Shown: positions 2,427 to 64,000 of the stretch, in pieces
Numbering within the stretch: position 1 is the stretch's first letter
How the letters are laid out: each line of letters begins with the position of its first letter
From: Opisthorchis felineus
Lineage: Eukaryota > Platyhelminthes > Trematoda > Opisthorchiida > Opisthorchiidae
Reading direction: 5' to 3'
NCBI GenBank assembly: GCA_004794785.1
Contig: SJOL01006400.1
Span: 398,955 to 462,954, forward strand
DNA length: 64,000 nucleotides
The notes under the pieces: model-generated
The model's database searches: none
The model's input: only the letters and a program-made list of their open reading frames with translations
What the model was told of the DNA's origin: nothing
Made by a program: the position numbers and the translations under genes

Positions 2427-2948
2427 GTTTCCAATAACTTATAAACATAAGTACGAATTCCAGCATTTATATGGGAATTTCAGCATATGTTTTTTGCGGC
2501 GCATGAAGATTTCATCAGAAGTATGGCACAAACGTGAGTTTTCCGGATTGACTGCAAAAGTGTAAATATTTAAATGATGACGTAACCAGTCGTCTGTTCT
2601 ATCTGTTACGGGACTCAAACAGGAATATTAGTAAATTGCAGGAACATTTAAGAAATACAAACACTATACACACCGGGTATCAAAAGCCGATGAAGGACCA
2701 AATATGTATTAAATTAGTATGTGAACTAATCAACACTTTTCAACGTGGAATGTTCGGAGTTGGAAGCAACGACAAGCTCTCTTTCATGCGGGCTAAATCA
2801 TCCAACGGGATTATGTTCTTTATTGGCAACGGAAGATTTTATCGCCTATGACGGTGTAAAGTAAGTCTAACGCACCTGGCTTGTTTGACAGCATTCACAC
2901 TCATTCTAACACAAGGCCATATAGAAGATGAGATAAAAGTTTAAGGAA
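2427..2948. other. No gene recognised
   Basis: Unique-looking AT-rich spacer between the 2.4 kb foldback and the first SINE copy. The longest open frame (71 codons) has no recognisable features. Confidence 0.6.
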
Positions 2949-3125
2949 ATTTTCCAGTCGAGATTTCGTCGCGTAAGTGAAACCAATCTATTCTGAAAAC
3001 TAAGGACTCCATAACTGCTTTATTCTTACTGCGAGCCATAGGCAGTGCGCAACTCTCGAAAATCTAGGTTTTAAAACTCGCAATTTCCCGACCAGCTGTT
3101 TGAACTCTGAACCACGGCCACTCCA
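2949..3125 (-). mobile_element. Family 1 SINE copy, strongly diverged
   Basis: The minus strand begins with GGAGTGGCCGTGGTTCAGAG (A-box-like, near 3120), lacks a clear B box, keeps GTTGCGCACTG and a badly altered core (CCTATGG), and ends with the well-kept tail GATTGGTTTCACTTAC, GACGAAATCTCGACTGGAAAA near 2950. The tail and the GCGCACTG boundary are what tie it to the family. Confidence 0.55.
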
Positions 3126-3315
3126 GGCTGGTTAGCTGTGTGATAAATTTGCGCCTTAATAGGACGAAGAGCCCCTCATCCTTCACTCATGAAATTCCCA
3201 TCATCTGGCCATGTGCTGTCCGGCTAATCGAGTGATGGTGAAAGCGTCACTTGTTTTGTGAAGTTATTTTTCCGCTGACCCACTTTTAGAGTGGTGGTGG
3301 TGTGAAAAGGCTTTG

Positions 3316-3350
3316 AAATTTTCAACTGAGGTTTCGTCCTGTAAGGGAAG
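3316..3350 (-). mobile_element. Family 1 SINE tail fragment forming a foldback with its neighbour
   Basis: AAATTTTCAACTGAGG followed by TTTCGTCCTGTAAG is the family tail in minus orientation. It abuts the plus-strand copy at 3350-3459, so the two tails make an inverted repeat with about 70 bases between the arms. Confidence 0.5.
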
Positions 3351-3459
3351 TGCGCAAATATGATGACTCCCAATAAGGAAGACACAGCTGCACAGCGCTT
3401 TGCGCCTTTTCAGTACAAACTGCCTTCAATTACACGGTAAAACCCCTATTGAAAATTTC
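3350..3459 (+). mobile_element. Family 1 SINE, hammerhead and tail half
   Basis: Plus-strand order: GTGCGCA, ATGATGA, stem II CTCC-CAATAA-GGA, GACAC (consensus GAAAC), AGCTGCACAGCGC, GCGCCTTTTCAGTACAAACTG, and a tail ending TATTGAAAATTTCC. The core loses one A of GAAA. The tRNA-derived half is absent. The element ends directly before a short tandem repeat (3459-3491), as SINE 3' ends often do. Confidence 0.55.
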
Positions 3460-3491
3460 CCCCATAGTGTTCCCATAGTGCCCCCATAGTG
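3459..3491. repeat. Three tandem copies of CCCATAGTG
   Basis: CCCATAGTG occurs three times in a row, separated by one to two bases, immediately after the 3' end of a family 1 SINE copy. Small 3'-terminal tandem repeats are common at SINE ends. Confidence 0.75.
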
Positions 3492-9400: not shown

Positions 9401-12044
9401 GTGACTTATGAACAACGCACCTGAGCACGCCAATGCCTACAGTCATGCGAAACCAGTGATTGGCTCAGGACGCGTAAGAAACACCGGCTTAACCTTCACT
9501 AAGCTCTACTCACAAAACTATGGCGCACAGGTGCTTTTCACAAAAACTTATTAGCCAAATATTCGTTCCCTTGTGAGGATGATTTGGCCAAAATAGTTGC
9601 TGGAACCGGTCCGTTATTTTATCTTTGAGCGGTTTCCCTTGATTTACATAGCACAGAACTAGGGTACTATACCAAAGTTAAAAACGTATGCCATTCTGAA
9701 TGTAAGTTTAGATACACTTGTGATTATGCCTAAAAGTAGAAGAGTGGAAGAACTATCACAGTGACCATTGTACGAAAGAATTTGAGTTATATATGTGAGT
9801 TATCTATGGGATCACACTGAACGTGACCAACAATTTCATTTTGTAATTCACGCCGCAAGGTATCAGAAGAACACTGAGATGAGTTGTAAACGCGTCACTC
9901 ACTTGGTAATCTAGTCACAGTATGGCTGTAAAGATTGAGAGAACGACACAAATTGTTTGGTGGGAAAGTTAAGGGCCATTGCCATTGTTCGATGAAATTA
10001 ATTTTCAATTGCATTGTCTAAGTTAAAAGCTACTACGTGTAAATTATCACGATTTCTGAGGTTAAAAACAAGTTCAAATCATGCATTTGTATAGCAAGTT
10101 GCTAATGGTCCTGAGACAAATTTTCAAGTTACTAATCGATTTGTATTTCGCTGCTTCAGCCGGAGCATCATCCGCTGACTGATTATATGGTGAGCTAAAC
10201 GAGGTTTTGGATTTGCTTTGAGGCAAGATTTTTATCAGTTTCTTTGTTGGTGAAAATATTGCTCATTAGGCACCTTAACATTGACTCAATAATGTACTTG
10301 AAGTTAGAGAATATAGAGAGAACATGTGGTAAAAAGTATGTGACAGTGGACAGTTTTCTCGGATGTGCAGAACTCTGAAAGAATATCACAAATGCAGCTA
10401 ACACCAGATCACGTGAAAGAAACTGCTTGACTGAGGGGCAGGTGATGATATGTCGAGATGAAAGTTATTATCATTGCCGATCAGCCGCCTGCAACCCGAA
10501 TTTCAAATTGTTCAACATACGCATTCCATGTTCGAATCTCTCTGGAGATAAACAAGGCACACGCTGCTACCGTTCACCTACACCAATGCATTTCTACACG
10601 CCTTGGCGTTTAGTTGGTGGATTTACGGCAAATGAAGTTAGTTTCGTTCCAGCTGTACACCATTCGTTGGCTTTAACACTGGGTTGATTTAACTTGCCGA
10701 AATGAAGAATGATTTACAACACCACATAAAAAGAAAAATGCTGCCAAGCCTGCAATAGTACCACGTGCTACTTATTTACTCGGGAGAGCAAGGCATTAAT
10801 TGGAATTTTTTAAACAAATAGCACAGCGTTATTTCTCCCTGATACTTGGGACTCAAATTGTTTCCTTAGATTACAAGTGCATCAACAACGATACATGAGA
10901 GTTTTACCTGATGACGTTCTGTTCTCGATACTCATTGTGAAGCATGTTTGGTATGACATTTATCGTAATCATTCAAATATCATATCATTATATCGCACGT
11001 TCACATATTGTCCTAAAACCATGTCACATATCTCAGTTAATATTACCAGCCATTTGCATAGATGAAGACTTGTCTGCTCAATAGATAAACCGAAACGTTT
11101 TCGCATTTGTGATGCAACAATAGTGCCCATATTTTTACGTATGGAAACCAATTTTGAATAAGTCAATGGTTTATCCACACAATACAAAATTTGGTAACGA
11201 ACATTAAACACCAGTGCTATGTTGGATCATTTTCAAGATAGATAGAGAACCACTGGCAAATGACCACGTTGCGTGTGACGACATGCAACGTACTCGTAAG
11301 GATTAAACTTGTCGTTAAATTTGCTAGATGGGAACGGCGAAAATACTATCAAATCTAAAAGGGGAATATAATTACAAGTTACAGATAACGTCTGCATGTG
11401 AGTGTGACAATTGTTCACCTTACGACCGATCTGCCCGAGTGGTCAGTAGTCACGTGAGCAGAGCACAGAAGGCTCAATACAAAGGTTTGCTGAATGCATA
11501 AACGTGGTTTTATGAATGAATCACGATCGCCTCAGCTTTGGCCAGATGTTGAGATTGAACGGATATTGCACACACACTTGTTCTATGATACACCTCAAAC
11601 AAGACTTGCAAATGAACAAAAATAACTTTGCATAACATTTCAACATTCAAAATCGACAATTTCCTATGTGAAAGTTCATTAAAATGACACGAAGATTGTT
11701 ACCCTAAATATAAGGATGATTGCATTGATCACTGACTTGACTGGTATGAGTTCCGTGAATTTTTCAAACGTCGCTTTCAAAATAGGTTACCAAGCAGCTA
11801 TCTGCCCACCAAAAATCCGTTCAGAATCGGCGTCTCGACAGAGCTGAGGCAACTGAGATTCGTTCACATAACCTGAGTCTGTGCACTCAGAAAGCGTCCC
11901 TATGCACATTGAGAATTCAATGGTCTTCTCATGTGAGCCAATCGGGTCAATCGATTACGACTTAAACCATTTTGACATTTTTCGTCGCAGATTCAGTGTT
12001 ACCTTTATTTTGTTTATGTCTTCTGTCTTTGGTTCTGTTATCCC
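3492..12044. other. Long gene-free stretch
   Basis: About 8.5 kb with no supported gene. The longest open frame (6340-6717 plus, 125 codons, non-ATG start) has no domain I recognise and a length expected by chance. A small inverted pair TCACTGGTT/AACCAGTGA near 9385-9460 is too weak to call. Degenerate B-box-like GGGTTCGAAAACC occurs on the minus strand at about 7218-7230 without further element structure. Confidence 0.55.
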
Positions 12045-31800: not shown

Positions 31801-32042
31801 TGGCCAATCAATAAAATTGAAGCAGTCTCAGAATGACCCTTTCTGACCACAGATGACAGGCTTAAAAGGACTAATTAATATGGACTCAATCAACTTTAAC
31901 CCTTGTGCGTACATGATTTATGCTCTGACCCGGAACGGTGAGCTGAGTTCAACACTGTGACTTGTGTCAGTTAGATTGCTAGTGATTGACAATTCAGTTG
32001 CGATTCAGGGAAGAGTGGTAAAGAATGATTGCACATCAAATA
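19895..32042. other. Long gene-free stretch with purine-rich blocks
   Basis: About 12 kb without a supported gene. By eye, the plus strand is rich in A and G at about 20300-22100 and 24780-25830, as is common for the sense strand of old retrotransposon coding regions, but no reverse transcriptase, integrase or protease motif is readable. A zinc-knuckle-like C-x2-C-x4-H pattern lacking its last Cys occurs at about 26886-26912 plus. The longest frame, 30985-31377 minus (130 codons), is unrecognised. Confidence 0.5.
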
Positions 32043-32196
32043 AACACATGATATTCTGAGAGATATCAACTTGTTCTAGGCAGGGCGAAAGTTCATAAGG
32101 GGTTTTAAAACAGTGTTTAGTGAGAGTTGTTCCATTTGGAAAGCACCTATGAACGTTTACCCTAGAACGCACTGATCTCTCAGAATATCATGTGTT
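32043..32196. repeat. Foldback element with 22-bp perfect terminal arms
   Basis: AACACATGATATTCTGAGAG with two more bases (32043-32064) is exactly reverse-complemented at 32175-32196. Imperfect pairing continues inward, including GTTCATAAGG (32091-32100) against CCTATGAAC (32146-32154), leaving a loop of about 45 bases. The whole unit of about 154 bp looks like a miniature inverted-repeat element or foldback transposon. I see no clear target-site duplication. Confidence 0.8.
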
Positions 32197-33018
32197 CATA
32201 TGGAGTACAGTTACTTTTAACCAAATCCTCCCATATTAAAACTGATTTTTTAGGTAATTAATTGGAATCTCACTCAGGTGTCGTCAAGGGTGCAAAACCT
32301 GCTTTTCAAATTATTGTGAACCAACTGTCACTATATACTTAAAAAATGCACGCGGTACTTTAGTTTCAGAATCAACTTTTCTTGTCTTATTTCTGCCGCT
32401 AATATAACTTGTTTTTCTGGGTCCTTTTTGTATACTGGTTGGTGACTTTAACATGTCTGGCTATTTCTGCCTAAATTCCCTAAGTGAACAGATGTCGCGA
32501 GCTCTCCCAAAGACCTGAGGCAAAACGCCATTTTGTTTGCAATCAATCTTAGCACCTTCGGCGTTTAAAAGCACTTGCCCACAACGGGAAGAAACGTAGG
32601 ACTCATGCGCCGCAAAATTCACATGAGCTAAAAATCATATGCTGTACAGCAAGTGAAATGTGCTATTCAGCACACATTTTAACCACTGGGTTTTCCATTT
32701 TCCATGGTCCCTTAGCACATTTCCCTGTTCTGTTTAACTTTCTCGGCTGCTGCCTAGTTAGCCTTGACAGAATCTACTGATGAAGCAGCTGCGGAGGAAT
32801 AAGGGGTATGCTTACGAAAGTGGAGGATGCGCAGAGTTCGGATGGTTGGCTCGGGAAATCAGAATCTGAATTCAAAAAAACTCTCGTGAGATGTGGCGGG
32901 CCTTGCAGCAGTTATGTGACGAAGGATAAAAGGTGAGTTAGACTTTTCTTGCACTTGACAAGCCCCAACAATAATTTGCCAAACCTATTAACTGAACTCG
33001 TCGGAACCTACGGATGTT
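32197..33018. other. No gene recognised
   Basis: AT-rich spacer between the foldback element and the pair of family 1 SINE copies. No open frame of note. Confidence 0.55.
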
Positions 33019-33180
33019 GTAATGGAGATTTCGGCCAGCAGGTTAAAGCCACTTATGCCAAAAGGCTGGGAAACCCTGACAAATCGTACAACACCGTACA
33101 TTAGCAGTGCGCATACCACGAATCTCCCGAGAGATTCGAATCCATCTCTTGTGGCTGGTAGTTACGGACTAAGCCATGCG
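33019..33180 (-). mobile_element. Family 1 SINE copy with strong B box
   Basis: The minus strand reads ATGGCTTAGTCCG (A-box-like, near 33165-33178), then GGATTCGAATC (33133-33143), a near-consensus polymerase III B box, then GTATGCGCACTG and a scrambled hammerhead region (about 33075-33112). The family tail follows: CCAGCCTTTTGGCATAAGTGG and CGAAATCTCCATTA, ending near 33020. It is the copy with the best B box and one of the worst ribozyme cores (CTAATGT, no GAAA). A long plus-strand open frame across this element (33022-33528) is a by-product of the repeat and not a gene. Confidence 0.62.
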
Positions 33181-33383
33181 GGCACGATCAGCAGAGTAAG
33201 TAAGTTGCACATGGACTGGATACAGCGCCACTCATCCTTCAAATACTGGTTTATATCACGTAGTCACTTGTTGATTGGCTTCTCAAACAACAGCTTCTCA
33301 GATGGAGGTTTTAATCGTGGTGCGAATTATTCTTCCTCTGAGTTCATTGCAGTTTGCCGGTGGTATAAGGGGATGCGTAAATT

Positions 33384-33470
33384 GCAATCAAGATTTGCCA
33401 TAAAAGTGAAGTCAACCTATGCCGAAAGCTGGAAAGCACTGTACACCTGTTGCATTCTTATAATCATCAC
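33384..33470 (-). mobile_element. Family 1 SINE, 3'-part fragment
   Basis: On the minus strand GATGATTATAAGAATGCAAC is followed by AGGTGTACAGTGCTTTCCAGC, GGCATAGGTTGACTTCAC and CAAATCTTGATTG. These match the hammerhead 3' half and tail of the family in order. The tRNA-like 5' part is not recognisable upstream. It lies about 360 bases from the 33.0 kb copy in the same orientation. Confidence 0.5.
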
Positions 33471-36400
33471 CTACGGATGCGTTGTTATGAATAGCATAGC
33501 AAGAGAGGTGCACAAGACACGCTTCTAGTAAAGTTAGGCAAAAATTGTGATCCCAATATTCGATGGCTGTTTGCAGAGTGTGATGGTATTCTTGGTGAAT
33601 GAACATTTATCCCGGTTACTCACTGACTGACTGTTGACGGGTGGCTAATATCACACCGGTGCCGAAGAGAATGACAAAAGGAATTCGGCTGTTCTATTGA
33701 GAACGCTTGAATATGTGCTCCCTTTCGAGTACCGCGTGTATTGTCGGACCAAATTCCCATCAAATCACTTTCGCTCCACACTGGACGTTGTTGGATCTAT
33801 AGTTGACTCAATAAAACCTGTGATTTATTTTATCTACTGCTGTTTATTTCGACGTTTGGGAAAGGGAGATTCTTTACTCTTGCGCTAACGTAGGTGAATA
33901 GAGTCTTTTCAGACTAGGTCACAAGGCACACGCGCTATGTAGGCATGTGCTACGTTCCCATTGCCCAATGTGTATTCTCCTCCGTTTACCTTCTCCTTTT
34001 ACGTGCAACACATTTCCACTCCTAACCTTCTAGGCCAGTGCAAGCGCCGGTAACACAGGATCTGTCCCTCAGGTGATCTGGAGCTACCAAATGTACTGAA
34101 TCAGGGTACTGTTTCTTCATTCAAGTGCTCTCCTTCCTGATTTTTTAAAATAAAGTAAAACATTTTTTACTCGCTCTTTCCCGGTCTGTTTTACTGTCAT
34201 CTGCTGAGTAACTATTACCTCTTCAACTTTTTGCCAAGTCCCGCCCCCAGAGTTTCTGTAAAATAGTTGGGTGTGACTTAATCAAGCACCCTCACGTGAA
34301 TCCGCAATTCCAAGAATTCTTTGGTCCAACTTTTTATGCCACTGGAGTAAGAACGCTCCCCGTTCCAATCTGTCGTATTCACAGTTTTGTTGGGGCATGT
34401 ATTCGCCTCCACAATTTCCTTCTGCTCTATCCATAAATGCTGTAGAAGGATTATGTTTCATTATCAGGTCAGATAATCATCGTCATATGTACAGGTAATA
34501 GTTGTTTTTATATGTAGCAGGCAAGCAGGCATCCAAAGGATTCTTTCTGAAGCAGTTCAGTTTTTCTATCTTGTAATCAGTAAAGCCATGTCTACTCAAG
34601 GCCCCCTTTCCAGATAGAGACGCTTGCCCCTCAGAACTTCATATGTCCTAATACTATGAGCCCCTACGTGCCCAGTGTACTAGCTGAACCCACAGTCCTG
34701 CATGTCTCACCTGCTGGAAAGTGTTTACTGCTGGATGGTTCAGGAGACTTTTTCAAAACTAACCGAATTGTTTCATTGTTTACACGTGCTATCGTTGTAA
34801 AGTTATACGCTGGAATCTGCTTTCGAACGCATAAGCCTTTAACCGACTTGATCTGGGTCGTCTCGAAATACCCGTTTACTGAATTTGGTTCATCTTGACG
34901 AATGAGTATCAAAGGTTAGTTTTTGGGCATCTCGGATACTAAGGACGATTCCGCACCAACTGAGGGATAAAATGATTTCATTTGGACGGACAGTAAATGT
35001 GATGAGGATCGCTTCAGTGGGTCACAGCAATTAGAGGAATGCGGGAAAGTAGATAGTACTCAGAGTCAGAGATACCATCTGATTAAAGGGGTCTCATGCA
35101 TTCCAGATCTAGGCAAAATCGTCGAAGTAAAATGGAACAGATACTGGTGGGTCATGATTTTGTAGCTGGAGTGTAAGCAAACACATAATCTTTTGCTTAC
35201 AGAGGTGCTGTTTTACCACTTCTGTCAACATTGCTACTGCCATTTGTTGCACATGTAGACCTACACTTCACAATAATCCGCTAATTTCGATGGTATAACA
35301 GACAAAATCTGACAGCTTCATGAGTGTAACCTTTAAGACGGCTTCGATCATAAACGAAAAGTTCGAACCTTGGACTGAACAATCATCCACGTGAGACGCA
35401 TACGCGAATAACCAAACATGACGTGAAACGTTTACAGCGGCTCATTTGCTTGGGGAATCCTCTCTGTAAAATTAATAACGCCGACTGAAAAATGTTATTT
35501 TAGTGGCAGTTTTGAATTACTTTTAAAACATTCATTCGGAGAAAACGCTGTAGAATTTATAGTATTACCAAGATACGGGTACGGTGAAAGCACACCATCT
35601 AAGTTGAGTGTGACTCTGCGAAGTGAGAAAGTTCGGTGGAATTTTCTCCTCTAAGTAACTAGTTGAAACAACCAGATATACTTTAGTGCGATCAAATTTT
35701 CACCGTAAGGCAACACAGTGCTCTGCTGTTCACAGCCTAATTCCGGCACAGATCGGTATTCGTTTTAAGTTTTCTGCTAAAAAATAGTTCCTTCAGATTT
35801 TCCAGTAACCTTTTTAAGCTTTCGCCTTACACTTTTGACTCCCACCATCTATGGCCATCAGTTCAATGAATGCTGGTATTTTGTAATCTATCACAGATGT
35901 AGGCATATTTTTTCGGTACCCCAATCAATCAAGTACCTGTGGTATGTAGTTAGGCGCCACCAATATATACGTGAGCTATCCTTGTTCGTCACATAAAACC
36001 CTAAGGTTTTATGGTGTTCTACCCCAATGTAACCAGCGCTCATGTAGAGTTCACCTGTTTGACTACTCCAGTTGACGAGTTTTCTTTAGAAGCGTTGTTG
36101 ATTGCCCACATAGTAGAACCTATAAGTAGAAAAGTTCATCTCCATACTAAAGATGGATTGCCCTGTTCTCTCTCTGTCTCAAGCCCATTCTTCCTCTTAT
36201 CTAGGCCTCGCTTAATGTCATTTGCATACTCAAGGCCATTATCAATTGTGATAGCTGTGCCCAGATTTTACCGAAGTTGTAATGGTGGAAAATTTGCATC
36301 AATTTGAATAAAGTGCCCGGCCAATCACAGAGTTCTGATGTTTAGATTCACAAACTTTGGTTGTAAGCTTGGGCTAACAATGTTTTATCGTAAGTGTCAG

Positions 36401-41820: not shown

Positions 41821-43230
41821 TTATCTGGTTGAGAGGTAGACACTCCAGTATAAAACGTTAAACAACAAAAATGCAATTGGATAGCCAATAGCAAAGTTGG
41901 CGTCTAAGCGTTCCCCCCTGAAAATCCCTCTTAACCGCGAGCGACTAGGCAAACAACCACCACATAGCAGGTCACTGGTGCTTTCTTTATCATTGACCGC
42001 CTGCCCCACTGTTTCCGTCAAAGTTTGGCATTCCTCTTCTCCCGAAAGTTCTGAATCCTTGCTTTTCTCCGCATCCGTCTTGAGATCCCGGACGACACTC
42101 TGGAGTGCTGCTTGTGTTGTGATGGCACTTTCGTTCAACACAGGTTTCCGTTTTCCGGAGTTTTTCTCTCCCGGGCTTCTCCTACTGATTGTATTCGCTG
42201 CGGCAAATTCAAGCAGTGAGGTTACCACAAATGCCAAACAGGTAAATACCCACAAATCCATTGCTTTGATATAAGAAATACGAGGCAACTGCGTTAGAAT
42301 TGCAGCACTGTGTGTGATCAGTGCCAGGATGCAGAGTAAACCAATGGAGACCCGGCCTGGGACAGCCAACGGATCCAGAAGAAATGAAACCCACGAAATG
42401 GCCACAATCAACATGGAAGGTACATAGGCGTAGATCAAGTAAAAGGCAAAACGTCGCTGTAGTTTAAATTCTAGCTCAAGGCAGGAAAATTTCCCGGTGG
42501 TAGAGTACTGGACGTCACAGTAATAAGCCGTACTAGCTACGAGTGCAAACTCATTAATTTCAAGGCCCGGTCGGACTACAACCGCTTTCTCTGTAGATCG
42601 ATTCCAGTAGACACTGTCCACGGGTATGTATTTTTCTTTCCGCCACCAACAGAGATCCAGGTCAGTTTGGGCATAACCGTAACTACCCATGTTTAACTTG
42701 CACAACTGTGTATCCAGTGGAAAGTTCCACAAATTCATGGGACAAGACACTTTGAGCGATATTTTTTGACTAAATGTTACAACCCCTTCTGTGTCCACCC
42801 AGATGAGATAATTTGGTTGAGTGATTTTGTGCAAAAAGCCACTCTTTGCATTCCTGAAAAATAGATCTGGTAACCACAACATTTCTTTGATATAGGAGAT
42901 GGCTTTTGGTACCGGCTCTTTGGGTGCTATTACTAGAAGTCTTTCGTCCAACCATCTTTGGCGTAACAGAAGATCGATTGTATAGTCCATAGCCACAACG
43001 CTGATTGAGCTGAAGCTGTAGACGAAGATGTTGACATCCACCAGTAATGGATGACGCGTCCCGTTCTGAAAGGCAACCTTATTCTTGGGGATTATGTGTC
43101 GCCGATAGCCTTGTAGTAGCACCGCATCGTCTTTTGCATCCGTTGCATTAGCTTGGTCAACCACTTTGCCTGAGACAAACAGCAAGCACGAGGCCACAAT
43201 GGAAGTTACTAATAATATCATTTTCTGCAT
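41821..43230 (-). CDS. Glutamate/glycine-type Cys-loop ligand-gated chloride channel subunit (GluCl-like), intronless
   Basis: A 469-residue subunit of a pentameric neurotransmitter-gated anion channel of the plasma membrane, probably mediating inhibitory signalling. In order: a hydrophobic signal peptide (about 1-20); a ligand-binding domain with loop A WLPDLFF (119-125), the 15-residue Cys-loop C163-C177 and loop B SYGY (183-186); the second disulfide pair C238-C250 typical of GluCl and GlyR; M1 (about 261-284), M2 after P291-G292-R293, M3 (about 323-346), a roughly 100-residue charged cytoplasmic loop, and M4 (about 447-466). Extracellular N-glycosylation sequons lie at N28, N56 and N210. 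Length is normal for the family. The ATG (G at -3) is the first after an in-frame TGA at 43261-43263, and the frame ends in TAA, so it is complete without introns. PGR replaces the usual PAR before M2, but R0' predicts anion selectivity. Glutamate as ligand is inferred; glycine or another transmitter is possible. Channel identity is very sure, subtype moderate. Confidence 0.93.
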   Translation of the reverse strand: MQKMILLVTSIVASCLLFVSGKVVDQANATDAKDDAVLLQGYRRHIIPKNKVAFQNGTRHPLLVDVNIFVYSFSSISVVAMDYTIDLLLRQRWLDERLLVIAPKEPVPKAISYIKEMLWLPDLFFRNAKSGFLHKITQPNYLIWVDTEGVVTFSQKISLKVSCPMNLWNFPLDTQLCKLNMGSYGYAQTDLDLCWWRKEKYIPVDSVYWNRSTEKAVVVRPGLEINEFALVASTAYYCDVQYSTTGKFSCLELEFKLQRRFAFYLIYAYVPSMLIVAISWVSFLLDPLAVPGRVSIGLLCILALITHSAAILTQLPRISYIKAMDLWVFTCLAFVVTSLLEFAAANTISRRSPGEKNSGKRKPVLNESAITTQAALQSVVRDLKTDAEKSKDSELSGEEECQTLTETVGQAVNDKESTSDLLCGGCLPSRSRLRGIFRGERLDANFAIGYPIAFLLFNVLYWSVYLSTR

Positions 43231-43450
43231 TGCGCAAGTGAAACGAAAAGCCCAGAAGGGTCAGCTATCCGGAGCTAAAACTTGGACGAAAGGAAAAAAC
43301 AAAATGGATACAAGCAGTTCTGTTAAAGGGACCAAAGATTGACATGCCGAATACAATATTATTTAAAGCACAACTACACAAGAAAACATTATTATCACAG
43401 TCCCATTTAGGGTGCTCAGTTGAAAACCTGACTATGTAACTTCATTCTTC
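43231..43450 (-). promoter_or_regulatory. Presumed 5' flank of the channel gene
   Basis: This is the stretch directly before the channel's start codon on the minus strand. An in-frame TGA at 43261-43263 fixes the start codon as the first possible Met. A TTTAAATA-like AT-rich motif occurs on the minus strand around 43360-43370. That could be a weak TATA-type element, but nothing else supports it. Flatworm mRNAs can be trans-spliced, so an acceptor AG in this flank is possible. None stands out clearly. Confidence 0.25.
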
Positions 43451-43850: not shown

Positions 43851-44139
43851 ACTTCAGTCAAAACTGCTCATTGGTTTCAATGTTATGACCCACTACGTAC
43901 GGGAGTGCTGGACTTGTCAGACGGGAAATGGGTGAATGTATATTTGAACAAATAGTTTCACCAACAACAGTGGACAGACAAACTGAACGGACGGATATGC
44001 GATCGCGTCATATAAATTGTGACAGTCGTACTCGAGAATCCAGTAAATAGGTGTTACGACGTGACGTAGACCCTGTGAGTGATGGATGAGCAGGGCCGTA
44101 TTGTGTCTAAGCGGGAGTTATTCACATTGCTGATCAGCC
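43851..44139. other. Spacer between AT-rich block and SINE
   Basis: Short unique sequence upstream of the channel gene and before the most complete family 1 SINE. Nothing recognisable. Confidence 0.5.
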
Positions 44140-44325
44140 GTTCTTAGCCGAACGGTTAAGTGTTCAGACTACTAGTCGGGCAGGTAGATGGTTCGAGATT
44201 GTATAGAGTTTTGTGCGATGCGCACTGCTGATGCACCCCTGTAAGGAAGAAATAGCTGTAGAATGCCTCCCGACTTTTCAGCATAAACTGGTCTTGCTTT
44301 CCGAGTGAAATCTCCATTAAAATAG
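44140..44325 (+). mobile_element. tRNA-derived SINE with hammerhead-like core, family 1 (most complete copy)
   Basis: The element starts with an RNA polymerase III promoter relic: A box TAGCCGAACGGTTAAG (44145-44160) and B box GGTTCGAGATT (44190-44200), resembling a Ser/Leu tRNA with a degenerate anticodon arm. It continues with a hammerhead-like segment (44222-44266) and ends in a tail reading CGACTTTTCAGCATAAACTGG and GAAATCTCCATTAAAA. The same tail occurs, mostly in reverse orientation, near 2.96, 33.03, 33.40, 61.41 and 62.52 kb. No open reading frame is present, so it would have depended on enzymes from another retrotransposon. The layout resembles the schistosome Sm-alpha element. That these copies derive from an active ribozyme SINE is inference from the aligned copies. 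Confidence 0.7.
44222..44266 (+). ncRNA. Degenerate type I hammerhead ribozyme in the family 1 SINE
   Basis: Helix I 5' strand GCACTG (44222-44227) is followed by the core CTGATGC (44228-44234; consensus CTGATGA), a stem II region of ACCCCTGTAAGGAA, an intact GAAA (44249-44252), TAGCTGTA corresponding to helix III plus the cleavage base, and GAATGC (44261-44266) as the 3' helix I strand. The A-to-C change in the core and the mismatches in helix I suggest this copy is slow or dead. The inferred family form has GCACTG paired with CAGTGC and a palindromic ACAGCTGT helix III. Confidence 0.55.
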
Positions 44326-61398: not shown

Positions 61399-61566
61399 TT
61401 TTCAATTAAGAGTTCGTCCTGTAAGTGATGCCAGTCTACGTTGAAAAGGTTGGATGAACTGTTCAGCTGTTTTGTCCTTGTTGGGAATCATTAGCAGTGA
61501 GCATCTCACGAAATTCCAGTGGACAGTTTCAGGCGACTAGTTGAACACTTAACCGTTTGGCCACCA
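61399..61566 (-). mobile_element. Family 1 tRNA/hammerhead SINE copy
   Basis: Read on the minus strand, an A box TGGCCAAACGGTTAAG (61548-61563) is followed by a poorly kept B-box region and GATGCTCACTG. Next come a hammerhead-like segment CTAATGA-TTCC-CAACAA-GGA-CAAAAC (about 61453-61500), AGCTGAACAGTTC, and the tail CATCACTTACAGGACGAA. The core carries G-to-A in CTGATGA and has lost the first G of GAAA, so it should not self-cleave. The tail ends near 61400 in AATTGAAAATT. About 1.1 kb separates it from the next copy in the same orientation. Confidence 0.65.
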
Positions 61567-62512
61567 GTGCCTGATCAACAGTGTAATAACCTCTCAGTTA
61601 GACAGGACATAGCGCCACTCAACCTCCAGTATCGGAAACGAAATCACGTGATCACATGTGTTGACTGGCTCCTCCAATCAGGACGACATTCGTCTGGCTG
61701 TTAAAAATTTAGTACTGAATTATAGGTTCTCCGCTTCAACTAAAAAGTTTATATCATCTGTTCTTATAACTCGTTTAAATAGTCCAGGTTGGTTTCTTTG
61801 AAACGAAGCTTCTCCTCAATTAATATACTGAGGTAACCGGTAGGTGGAGCGTTCGGGCTTGGCAGTACAAAGAGTCATGAGAAGTAGTCGCTCGGTTTTA
61901 CGTTGTTTTCGGACATTTCACTAGCGATTTAAGTTGATTTTGCTTCGCTGTGTCTGGTTTCGACTAATTCGAAGGTATGAATCGCAGATATCACGTCAAT
62001 GTTGGGGAGATGACTGAATCCTTGGTCTGAAGAATGACTTAGCCACTGAGAACGCTGTTCGAGCTGATGTGTGGAACCTGTCCGGTGGTTTAATAACCGG
62101 AGATGCAGGAATGCCGTTGTGATACTACCCGCCTTAGTTGAACGGGCAGTGTTTCTCGCCAGTCAAAGATATCAACTTCATAGTTCCGAAGCACACGCTT
62201 CATAGTCGTTTTAAACTAGACGAAAGAAAGGGAACCGATGGTTGTAGGAACATTTGGTGAACAGCCGGTGGACAACATTTCGTTTTCACAAAAGGCCACT
62301 TCGGGCCCAGTGAGTCAGTTATCGGGTTAGCGGAGTTTCATAGCAACGAACTGCTACGTAGTATTAAGTTATCCGATCATTTCCTAAACAGCTCTTAGAC
62401 GAGAACTTCAAATGTTCCCAACTGTTCCAAACTACGTGAAGGATCATTAGCAAACAAATCGCCCACACCAGCAGAGTGCATATGTTTTGGTAGTGTGAGG
62501 ACCATTGAGGTT
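61567..62512. other. Spacer between two family 1 SINE copies
   Basis: Unique-looking sequence of about 950 bases between two same-orientation SINE copies. No coding signal. Confidence 0.5.
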
Positions 62513-62694
62513 TTTTAATGGAGATTTTGTTCTTTAACTGAAGCCAGTCTATACTGAAAAGTCGAGAAGCACTGTACAGCTGTTTTATCCTTGTTGGGAA
62601 TCATGAGCAGAGCGCACCTCAAGAAATTTCAACAGTCTGTAATTCGAGATCTCCTGGACAGTAGTTTGAACAGATAAGCGTTAGTGGGCCACTT
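62513..62694 (-). mobile_element. Family 1 tRNA/hammerhead SINE copy
   Basis: On the minus strand an A-box relic TGGCCCACTAACG (near 62694) and a B-box relic ATCTCGAATT (near 62641-62650) precede GCGCTCTG, CTCATGA, TTCC-CAACAA-GGAT, AAAAC, AGCTGTACAGTGCTTC and the tail ending AAATCTCCATTAAAAAA near 62513. Helix I would be GCTCTG with CAGTGC, five of six pairs. The palindromic helix III ACAGCTGT is intact. The catalytic core has G-to-C in CTGATGA and has lost the first G of GAAA, so it is probably inactive. Confidence 0.65.
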
Positions 62695-64000
62695 GTGGCC
62701 AAAAGGTCCTACCATGAGGAAATCGTAGAGGGGCATGGAAAACCGTCTCTTGGGGCTAACCGGAAAACAACAATAATAGTTTTTGATTCTGTGACTGCTT
62801 AAGAGTATCCAGGATGGACTATATTGCGTTTGAAAATGTTGGCTCTGGATTTCACCCGTTCAAGTATTTCCCATAAATAGTCTTTGATTATGTATAGAGG
62901 TGACTCTGTGAACTTAAGTCTGTTCACCGTATGTTTGGTAGCAGCATCGCTGCAATATACTGACGTAATATCCGATGATCGAACGCCTTTAGAGTGTACT
63001 GCAGGCGGGGAAATTTCAGGGGCTGATATAAAAATATCCGATCGAAGTTCTTCATAGGCCTCATTCTAATGGAATGGTGGTTCCAATTAACTCTAATGTT
63101 TTGGACATTCGCGTCGACTAGGGGGTACGAGTATTCCGGAGCAGTATTTTGACAGACACGTGACCATAACCCAGCAGTACAATGCAGTCTGGAAAGGTGC
63201 TGTAAAATAAGAAGCTGAAAAAAAGAACAATAACGGTCCGAAAAGGCTTGATAGCAGCTAGTGAGACACTGTAAGGCTCAATAATTTCCTAGTATCTCGT
63301 GGATCTCTGGGGAAACCAGGCCTGCTGCCCCCTACTATTGCGTGCATTTTTGTCTCCCACTTATTAACCGTCAGAGAACAGTGTTCGGTCGTCGAAACAG
63401 TGGTAGATAAGTCAGGTTTACCACATCTGTGATAGAATTTATAATGGTATCGTTAGTTAGAACGACGACAATGCTGGGAGTAAACTTTCCTGACCCTCCG
63501 TCCCAAAAGCCAAAGAAGACTACTTATCAGCTTGTGAGTGGCATTCCTTTACAAGCTTTCAATGTGCTACGCTTGCAATTTTACACTGAGTGAGGGTCTA
63601 TGGCCACGATCCTACAGACCAAAGCAAGTCGAAACACAGCTTACTGCTGTACGTCACACGGACTTTATCAGTAACGCAGAAAAGCGATTTATCAAAAACA
63701 GGCTGTTTGAATTCAAGTGCGTGGACGACCAACTTTGGCAAGCTATTTGTCCCACATTGATGGGTCTACTCCAGTGTCACAATTGCGTTCGTGTGACCAA
63801 ACTAATTTAACTCTTGTCTAACAATATGTGTGCACCAGGATGAGTCGTACGACCAATGCGGACCTTAAGACATATTCCGCATACACTGTTAGTTTCGGCA
63901 TTTGGATTGCCCACTCCGCGCGTCATCTGGCCCAAGTCCCACGACTTTGTATACAGTAACCCATTCTCGCCCATGCTCACGCAGCCGAGAGTAGCTCCTT
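62695..64000. other. No gene recognised to window end
   Basis: A 90-codon plus-strand frame at 63538-63810 starts at GTG and has no recognisable features. No repeat was noticed. Confidence 0.5.

Follow-up and report, generated by a model that had tools for sequence, protein, structure and literature searches.

A hammerhead-bearing SINE family in the liver fluke Opisthorchis felineus that is probably mobilised by a Penelope-like element

Near 44.2 kb of a 64,000-nucleotide stretch of Opisthorchis felineus contig SJOL01006400.1 (hereafter the window), a short repeat combines polymerase III (pol III)-type promoter boxes with the remains of a type I hammerhead ribozyme. What kind of element is it, and what moved it? 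The mover of small hammerhead-bearing animal elements is a question that the structure of natural insertions can address, and our analysis indicates that this repeat family is a non-autonomous hammerhead SINE resembling Sm-alpha, and that a Penelope-like element (PLE) probably mobilised it. The initial annotation brought in Penelope only as a parallel; what is new here is an insertion structure pointing to the Penelope mechanism.

The repeat was originally placed at 44140 to 44325, with the same ordered blocks recurring at seven places in the window. For an independent assessment, we built an nhmmer profile of the 387-nt unit with window sequences excluded, combining the consensus with 55 pieces taken from other loci. 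It yielded nine matches at E ≤ 1 in the window and zero in the reversed window, and recovered all seven places; another profile, drawn from the window's own copies, found these by construction, together with a weak eighth at 10.4 kb. The seven places amount to five insertions, however, as those at 3.0 and 3.35 kb form a single tandem-plus-inverted composite (2939-3460) and those at 33.0 and 33.4 kb a single partial tandem (33016-33471). The named copy is also longer than first described, running from 44027 to 44324 on the plus strand (unit 65-362, E 2.2e-70) and stopping at one of the two 3' ends of the family (end B, see below). Its A box (TAGCCGAACGGT, 44145-44156, plus strand) and B box (GGTTCGAGATT, 44190-44200, plus strand) agree with the box consensuses at 11 of 12 and 9 of 11 positions, respectively. 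Compared with the family consensus, the sequence at 44222-44266 (plus strand) is a decayed type I hammerhead that has no Rfam match, in which the 5' strand of stem I (GCACTG, 44222-44227) is followed by CTGATGC in place of CTGATGA (44228-44234), a surviving GAAA box (44249-44252), GTA (44258-44260, with predicted cleavage after 44260), and the 3' strand of stem I (GAATGC, 44261-44266), all on the plus strand.

The composite consists of a minus-strand copy at 2939-3289 (unit 3-379, E 7e-50), which is its left arm, the tail of a preceding unit in partial tandem with that copy (3294-3350, minus strand, unit 330-385, E 1.7e-4), and a plus-strand right arm placed head-to-head with it (3326-3460, unit 241-364, E 5.9e-19). 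Similarly, the partial tandem joins a minus-strand copy at 33016-33347 (unit 8-361, E 3.9e-47) to the tail of a preceding unit at 33359-33471 (minus strand, unit 265-383, E 1.8e-13), and it is bounded by an exact 11-nt direct repeat, ACCTACGGATG, at 33006-33016 and 33469-33479 (score 12.5), i.e., a target-site duplication. The remaining copies are a plus-strand fragment at 10395-10549 (unit 80-248, E 2.7e-6) and minus-strand copies at 61400-61684 (unit 63-360, end B, E 1.8e-65) and 62487-62700 (unit 175-385, end A, E 3.5e-46), the last being a short form with its 5' limit just upstream of the A box. No clear target-site duplication was found round the composite (score 5) or round the three single copies at 44027-44324, 61400-61684, and 62487-62700 (scores 4-5). 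The copies in the window were thought to be decayed, and they are: in an alignment of the seven cores none retains both core boxes intact, and an Rfam scan of the window and of the named copy returned no hammerhead match.

Other features of the window include a Cys-loop ligand-gated channel frame at 41821-43260 (minus strand, 479 codons), which shares 90% identity with a protein of Clonorchis sinensis and 86% with one of Opisthorchis viverrini. A long, near-perfect hairpin at 2344-2426, with arms of ~35 bp and a mir-3913-like match far below cut-off, may be a small inverted-repeat transposon, and an inverted repeat at 32016-32223 has 49-nt arms that are 80% complementary and 110 nt apart.

The full unit of 387 nt comprises 98 nt confined to longer copies, the A box at 184, the B box at 228, the hammerhead at 260-304 (core 266-290, predicted cut after 298), a body, and alternative 3' ends. 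End B lies 55-63 nt beyond the cut (unit 353-361, ...CTCCACA and an A-run) and end A 89 nt beyond it (unit 387, ...CACTACCAACA), so that the two are 26-34 nt apart. A search of the 630-Mb assembly with the 44.2-kb copy revealed at least 41 genomic places, itself included, and 20 other copies together with this one provided the first alignment and consensus. Five loci found in twenty 10-kb stretches (168 kb of sequence, 32 of the 200 kb being N) extrapolate to ~19,000 loci genome-wide (6,000-44,000), which is a rough estimate because the sampled stretches came from contigs that had matches. The proposed SINE family is genome-wide, with dispersed copies, target-site duplications, and a consensus that has both the pol III-type boxes and the type I hammerhead. 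The suggestion that it might be specific to the lineage does not extend to confinement to this species, since part of one predicted O. viverrini protein is a translation of element sequence (72% identity, covering 83% of the query).

The A and B boxes of the unit are 44 nt apart, and 1 of 1,000 shuffles equalled them jointly. In addition, 12 of 56 matched pieces begin at unit 169-192, shortly before the A box. ARAGORN called no tRNA in the SINE, and Rfam called none in four SINE loci at E values up to 5; judged by its boxes, the unit appears to have the internal pol III promoter of a SINE. These data bear on a different reading, which regards the unit as a solo pseudo-LTR from an undiscovered PLE family and its pol III boxes as fortuitous. 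Pseudo-LTRs do have a hammerhead, two termini, partial tandems, and inverted copies, but the boxes stand at tRNA spacing and surpass 999 of 1,000 shuffles, the starts upstream of the A box are those expected of pol III transcripts, and 157 junctions in the genome (see below) join units directly, with no gene between them. We consider this reading improbable.

The consensus RNA of the ribozyme region reads GAGAUGC GCACUG CUGAUGA UUCC CAAUAA GGAU GAAAC AGCU GUA CAGUGC UUCUC. Its 6-bp stem I is perfectly paired and accompanied by an outer 4-bp helix; the core boxes are in order, stem II is short, stem III has two pairs, and GUA|CAGUGC spans the predicted cut. Loss of the CTGANGA and GAAA boxes from the consensus had been named as evidence against a hammerhead; both are kept, and in order. 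The consensus thus has the makings of a type I hammerhead, namely CUGANGA linked to GAAA through stem II, an open stem I, and a UH cleavage site. By exact pattern counts, 297 genome copies have the core CTGATGA-N-TCC-N6-GGA-N-GAAACAGCTGTAC. The covariance-model search that had been proposed found matches, although all SINE scores are below the Rfam cut-off. More specifically, Hammerhead_HH9 matched at 7 of the 10 loci given to Rfam (4227 families), with E values from 1.8e-5 to 0.16, the best SINE copy scoring 34.5 bits (E 1.8e-5) against a gathering cut-off of 52. Of the other three loci, the SINE pair at L080 gave E 0.44, and L060 and L078 gave no match, L078 having no SINE; three SINE loci run further also matched, two of which duplicate places among the ten. 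One could hold that the hammerhead is a chance resemblance inside an old repeat, as the window copies have no Rfam score and the SINE copies fall short of the gathering score. An E value as low as 1.8e-5 over 4227 families and a consensus with every core box in order, the 6-bp stem I, and the outer 4-bp helix speak against this, and we reject it as very improbable.

Whether the ribozyme works is another matter. Hammerheads strongly, though not invariably, prefer a G10.1-C11.1 pair. Among the 297 cores this pair is T.T in 253, G-C in none, and G.T in 7, with 17 having T at 10.1 and another base at 11.1, and 27 having a base other than T at 10.1. The ribozyme is therefore altered family-wide at this pair, beyond the decay of single copies. 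The lowest-energy fold of the consensus (-17.8 kcal/mol) lies 7 kcal/mol below the hammerhead fold (-10.5 kcal/mol), and mean agreement with the consensus is 95.2% at core sites, 93.5% across the ribozyme region, and 91.9% in the promoter head, which is a weak difference. We considered copy ends at the cut as a cleavage footprint and discarded the idea, one copy starting exactly at the cut and none at one control position. From the ATG inside CUGAUGA, a frame of 39 codons runs without a stop to end A, like that of PLEs whose frame begins there, which is weak evidence because another frame is also open across almost all of this region. Given the U.U at 10.1-11.1, the disfavoured fold, and the sub-cut-off scores, the hammerhead seems real by descent and its activity doubtful. 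According to the available text of PMC11167929, a PLE hammerhead cut only with protein present, so the SINE ribozyme may still have some activity.

A second hammerhead repeat (L049-L056) occupies 34 genomic places and has a canonical core, CTGATGAGTCCC..GGACGAAAC, with a short stem III. Eight of the 34 were examined, seven having stem III CC/GG and L054 being a variant, and L052 scored 35.2 for Hammerhead_1, over the cut-off of 34. Tandem and inverted copies of this family occur. Just left of position 330 at L059, a SINE pair is flanked by sequence similar to the 3' part of this second family, so that one ribozyme element may have inserted into another.

To examine how SINE copies are inserted, we used the 27 of 40 non-self places with at least 500 bp of flank (L002-L008 and L057-L076), which leaves out L016-L028 (200 bp of flank), among them L027, the same place as L076; L009-L015 duplicate the places of L002-L008. 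Head-to-head inverted pairs are present at 15 of the 27 loci, and ~0.9 partners would be expected by chance. Among 100 of 253 places listed, five pairs lie within 1 kb, of which four are head-to-head, one is tandem, and none is tail-to-tail. When 14 pairs were tested for target-site duplications (L068 was omitted as too complex), 11 had one round the whole pair (p < 0.02 each versus mismatched flanks), with a mean score of 10.8 for pairs and 5.2 (sd 1.3) for mismatched flanks. These duplications range from 10 to 16 nt, the best being at L070 (16/16 nt) and L072 (15/15 nt); none was clear at L004, L065, and L074, and only 3 of 12 simple copies pass the test. Since a single duplication encloses both arms, most head-to-head pairs are single events.

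In 13 pairs compared (L065 and L068 omitted), the two arms overlap by 34-225 nt, so one RNA copied once is insufficient. Two source RNAs are suggested at L005, where one arm departs from the consensus at 7 of 181 sites and the other at 25. Private variants common to both arms number zero in 8 of the 13 pairs, one in 3, and five or six in 2, which is only a hint that the two arms generally have separate templates. We also tallied outer ends in 13 pairs with two arms (omitting L062 and L068) and found that 10 have one outer end at end A (i.e., with the tail, 89 nt past the cut) and the other at 55-63 nt. L066 and L074 are tailless at both ends, and L075, whose tail match is internal, has its left end at unit 134. 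The pattern of one tailed and one tailless end is modest (10/13, p 0.046 against one half; 10/12 without L075, p 0.019), and 20 of 3999 control 50-mers satisfy the tail-calling rule.

Could an ordinary LINE have mobilised the SINE, with an incidental hammerhead and with pairs arising by twin priming or from later neighbouring insertions? Pol III boxes, dispersal, and target duplications suit any SINE, and twin priming in L1 produces inverted 5' parts. On a single RNA, however, twin priming inverts the 5' part without repeating it, and the overlapping arms lead us to reject it in its ordinary form. Separate insertions would not have one common duplication round both arms, and the family has two recurrent 3' ends rather than one. 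In addition, close inverted Alu pairs are reported as rarer than direct ones in the part of PMC3215922 available. This makes the LINE account unlikely.

Unit ends also meet directly. Allowing up to three mismatches and seeking only ungapped cases, we counted 157 junctions from unit 387 to unit 1 in the genome. Among 100 of these listed, none lies ~387 bp from another on the same strand (by eye), and no long arrays are seen among them; the unit as a long satellite was discarded. These junctions and the ~390-nt unit suit the circular templates of a strict animal retrozyme, in which the hammerhead frees monomers from tandem transcripts, a ligase circularises them, and the circular RNA serves as template for whichever enzyme copies it. 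According to the accessible sections of PMC7229834, animal retrozyme RNAs of ~170-400 nt are known and retrozyme-like repeats exist in platyhelminths. Against this account stand the absence of long arrays among the 100 junctions listed, the apparent weakness of the consensus ribozyme, the lack of a surplus of ends at the cut (1 versus 0 at one control), and a statement in PMC11167929, as far as its text was available, that the PLE hammerhead is dispensable for insertion in vitro. We hold the strict retrozyme account, which overlaps with PLE mobilisation, to be possible yet doubtful.

Mobilisation by a PLE accommodates these structures better. As described in the accessible parts of PMC11167929 (Frangieh et al. 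2024), a purified PLE protein cuts and extends both target strands, and its cDNA starts internally at two adjacent AC-rich sites, which accounts for the optional tail of 30-40 bp seen in PLE copies. Within the frame, cDNA starts mainly at 111-118 nt and the hammerhead cuts at 26, a separation of 85-92 nt. PLE copies in the Adineta vaga study, in the portions of PMC3846280 at hand, form partial tandems with head-to-head inverted ends, carry a 31-bp tail on one inverted end, and have duplications of 8-10 bp. The SINE shows the same marks, namely head-to-head copies within one target duplication, partial tandems, and two adjacent 3' ends (89 and 55-63 nt past the cut), with the tail on one of the two outer ends in 10 of 13 pairs.

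Resident PLEs were sought by GIY-YIG and reverse transcriptase searches, and 140 scored of 5471 candidates gave 141 matches to one fragment. By identity the matches form three groups (near 88, 57, and 53%); many are free of stops, and the frames span 600-860 codons. PLEs with open frames are numerous in at least three groups (e.g., C909, C860, C1298, and C1366), some of them adjacent, in tandem or head-to-head. Judging from such frames, the liver fluke genome appears to carry a recently active PLE load. In family 1, 32 of 40 scored loci end 77-85 nt past the predicted hammerhead cut, near ...AGAAAA and unlike ACCAACA; 4 of the 40 have a head-to-head partner, and only one of these four pairs (C992) has ends ~39 nt apart. 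In family 3, an inverted arm ends 58 nt past the predicted cut, at ACCAAC. The 5' ends were read for two families (L078; L080 and L084), the third family's L082 and L083 being all N, and none of the PLEs read has SINE sequence between the cut and the termini. The weak profile similarity between the SINE and family 3 (E 0.4) involves the hammerhead only. As the SINE and these PLE families have no common sequence beyond the hammerhead, the PLE partner is unproven.

Two further observations concern family 3. At L080:628 and L084:486, the homology of direct copies to the full inverted arm starts 1-2 bases after the predicted cut; in these two copies the starts could be a cleavage footprint, unlike in the SINE. 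At L080:198-604, almost no gap separates a head-to-head pair of SINE copies from an inverted PLE end, and SINE and PLE may have inserted into one another or together.

Our main reading is that the SINE is mobilised in trans by a PLE, with two-stranded, internally started insertion, and we put its probability at roughly 0.7. The pol III RNA of the SINE would be used in trans by a PLE reverse transcriptase with a GIY-YIG endonuclease, which would cut both target strands and begin cDNA internally at two sites. The two cDNAs, copied in some cases at least from separate RNA molecules, would then be joined at their 5' ends, producing a head-to-head pair inside one duplication, and concatemeric or circular RNA would produce the partial tandems. 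The 3' half of the SINE, with the hammerhead and the start sites, may be a module from the 5' end of a PLE. The ribozyme might resolve or circularise the RNA, and this is the least supported step. With somewhat less assurance than for the mechanism itself, we favour the broader view of a class of pol III SINEs that parasitises PLEs, not LINEs, through a PLE-like module and joins the cDNAs of two RNAs in one event.

Cervera and de la Pena (PMC7229834 and PMC7761336) proposed that PLEs drive animal retrozymes, arguing from features that the two share and from their co-existence; the grounds given in the text available are common type I hammerheads, tandem copies, and genomes. The natural insertions described here carry a countable structural signature, which matches that of one PLE enzyme studied in vitro, as far as the available text of PMC11167929 describes it. 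We found no earlier report of insertion-structure evidence for a PLE-driven SINE in a search that covered subscription literature sparsely. If our reading is true, SINEs need not depend on LINEs, the unusual insertion pattern of PLEs also applies to client RNAs, and the many copies of this family provide a record for working out PLE integration.

With PLEs, as the accessible text of PMC11167929 and PMC3846280 describes them, the fluke SINE shares head-to-head copies, partial tandems, two adjacent predicted start sites, and an optional tail, together with a type I hammerhead whose distance from the start site is of the same order (PMC11167929). It differs in being a 387-nt unit with pol III boxes and without a reverse transcriptase or GIY-YIG endonuclease gene, so the unit itself is not a PLE, and its duplications (10-16 nt) exceed the 8-10 bp given for PLE copies in the sections of PMC3846280 at hand. 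Metazoan non-LTR retrozymes resemble it as small, non-autonomous elements with a type I hammerhead in a PLE-bearing genome, and PLEs are called a strong candidate for mobilising them in the available text of PMC7229834; the fluke SINE has, in contrast, pol III boxes, no long arrays among the junctions listed, and structural evidence of the PLE type. By description, the fluke SINE also resembles the schistosome Sm-alpha and Sj-alpha elements. In the parts of PMC2770079 and PMC6155905 available, Sm-alpha is SINE-like and tRNA-related, carries a type I hammerhead, is estimated at more than 10,000 copies, and resides in a trematode host. The fluke SINE is distinguished by U.U at 10.1-11.1, dispersed composites, partial dimers, and PLE-type insertion marks, of which those same parts of the Sm-alpha descriptions make no mention. 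Schistosome Sm-alpha may be another SINE that parasitises PLEs.
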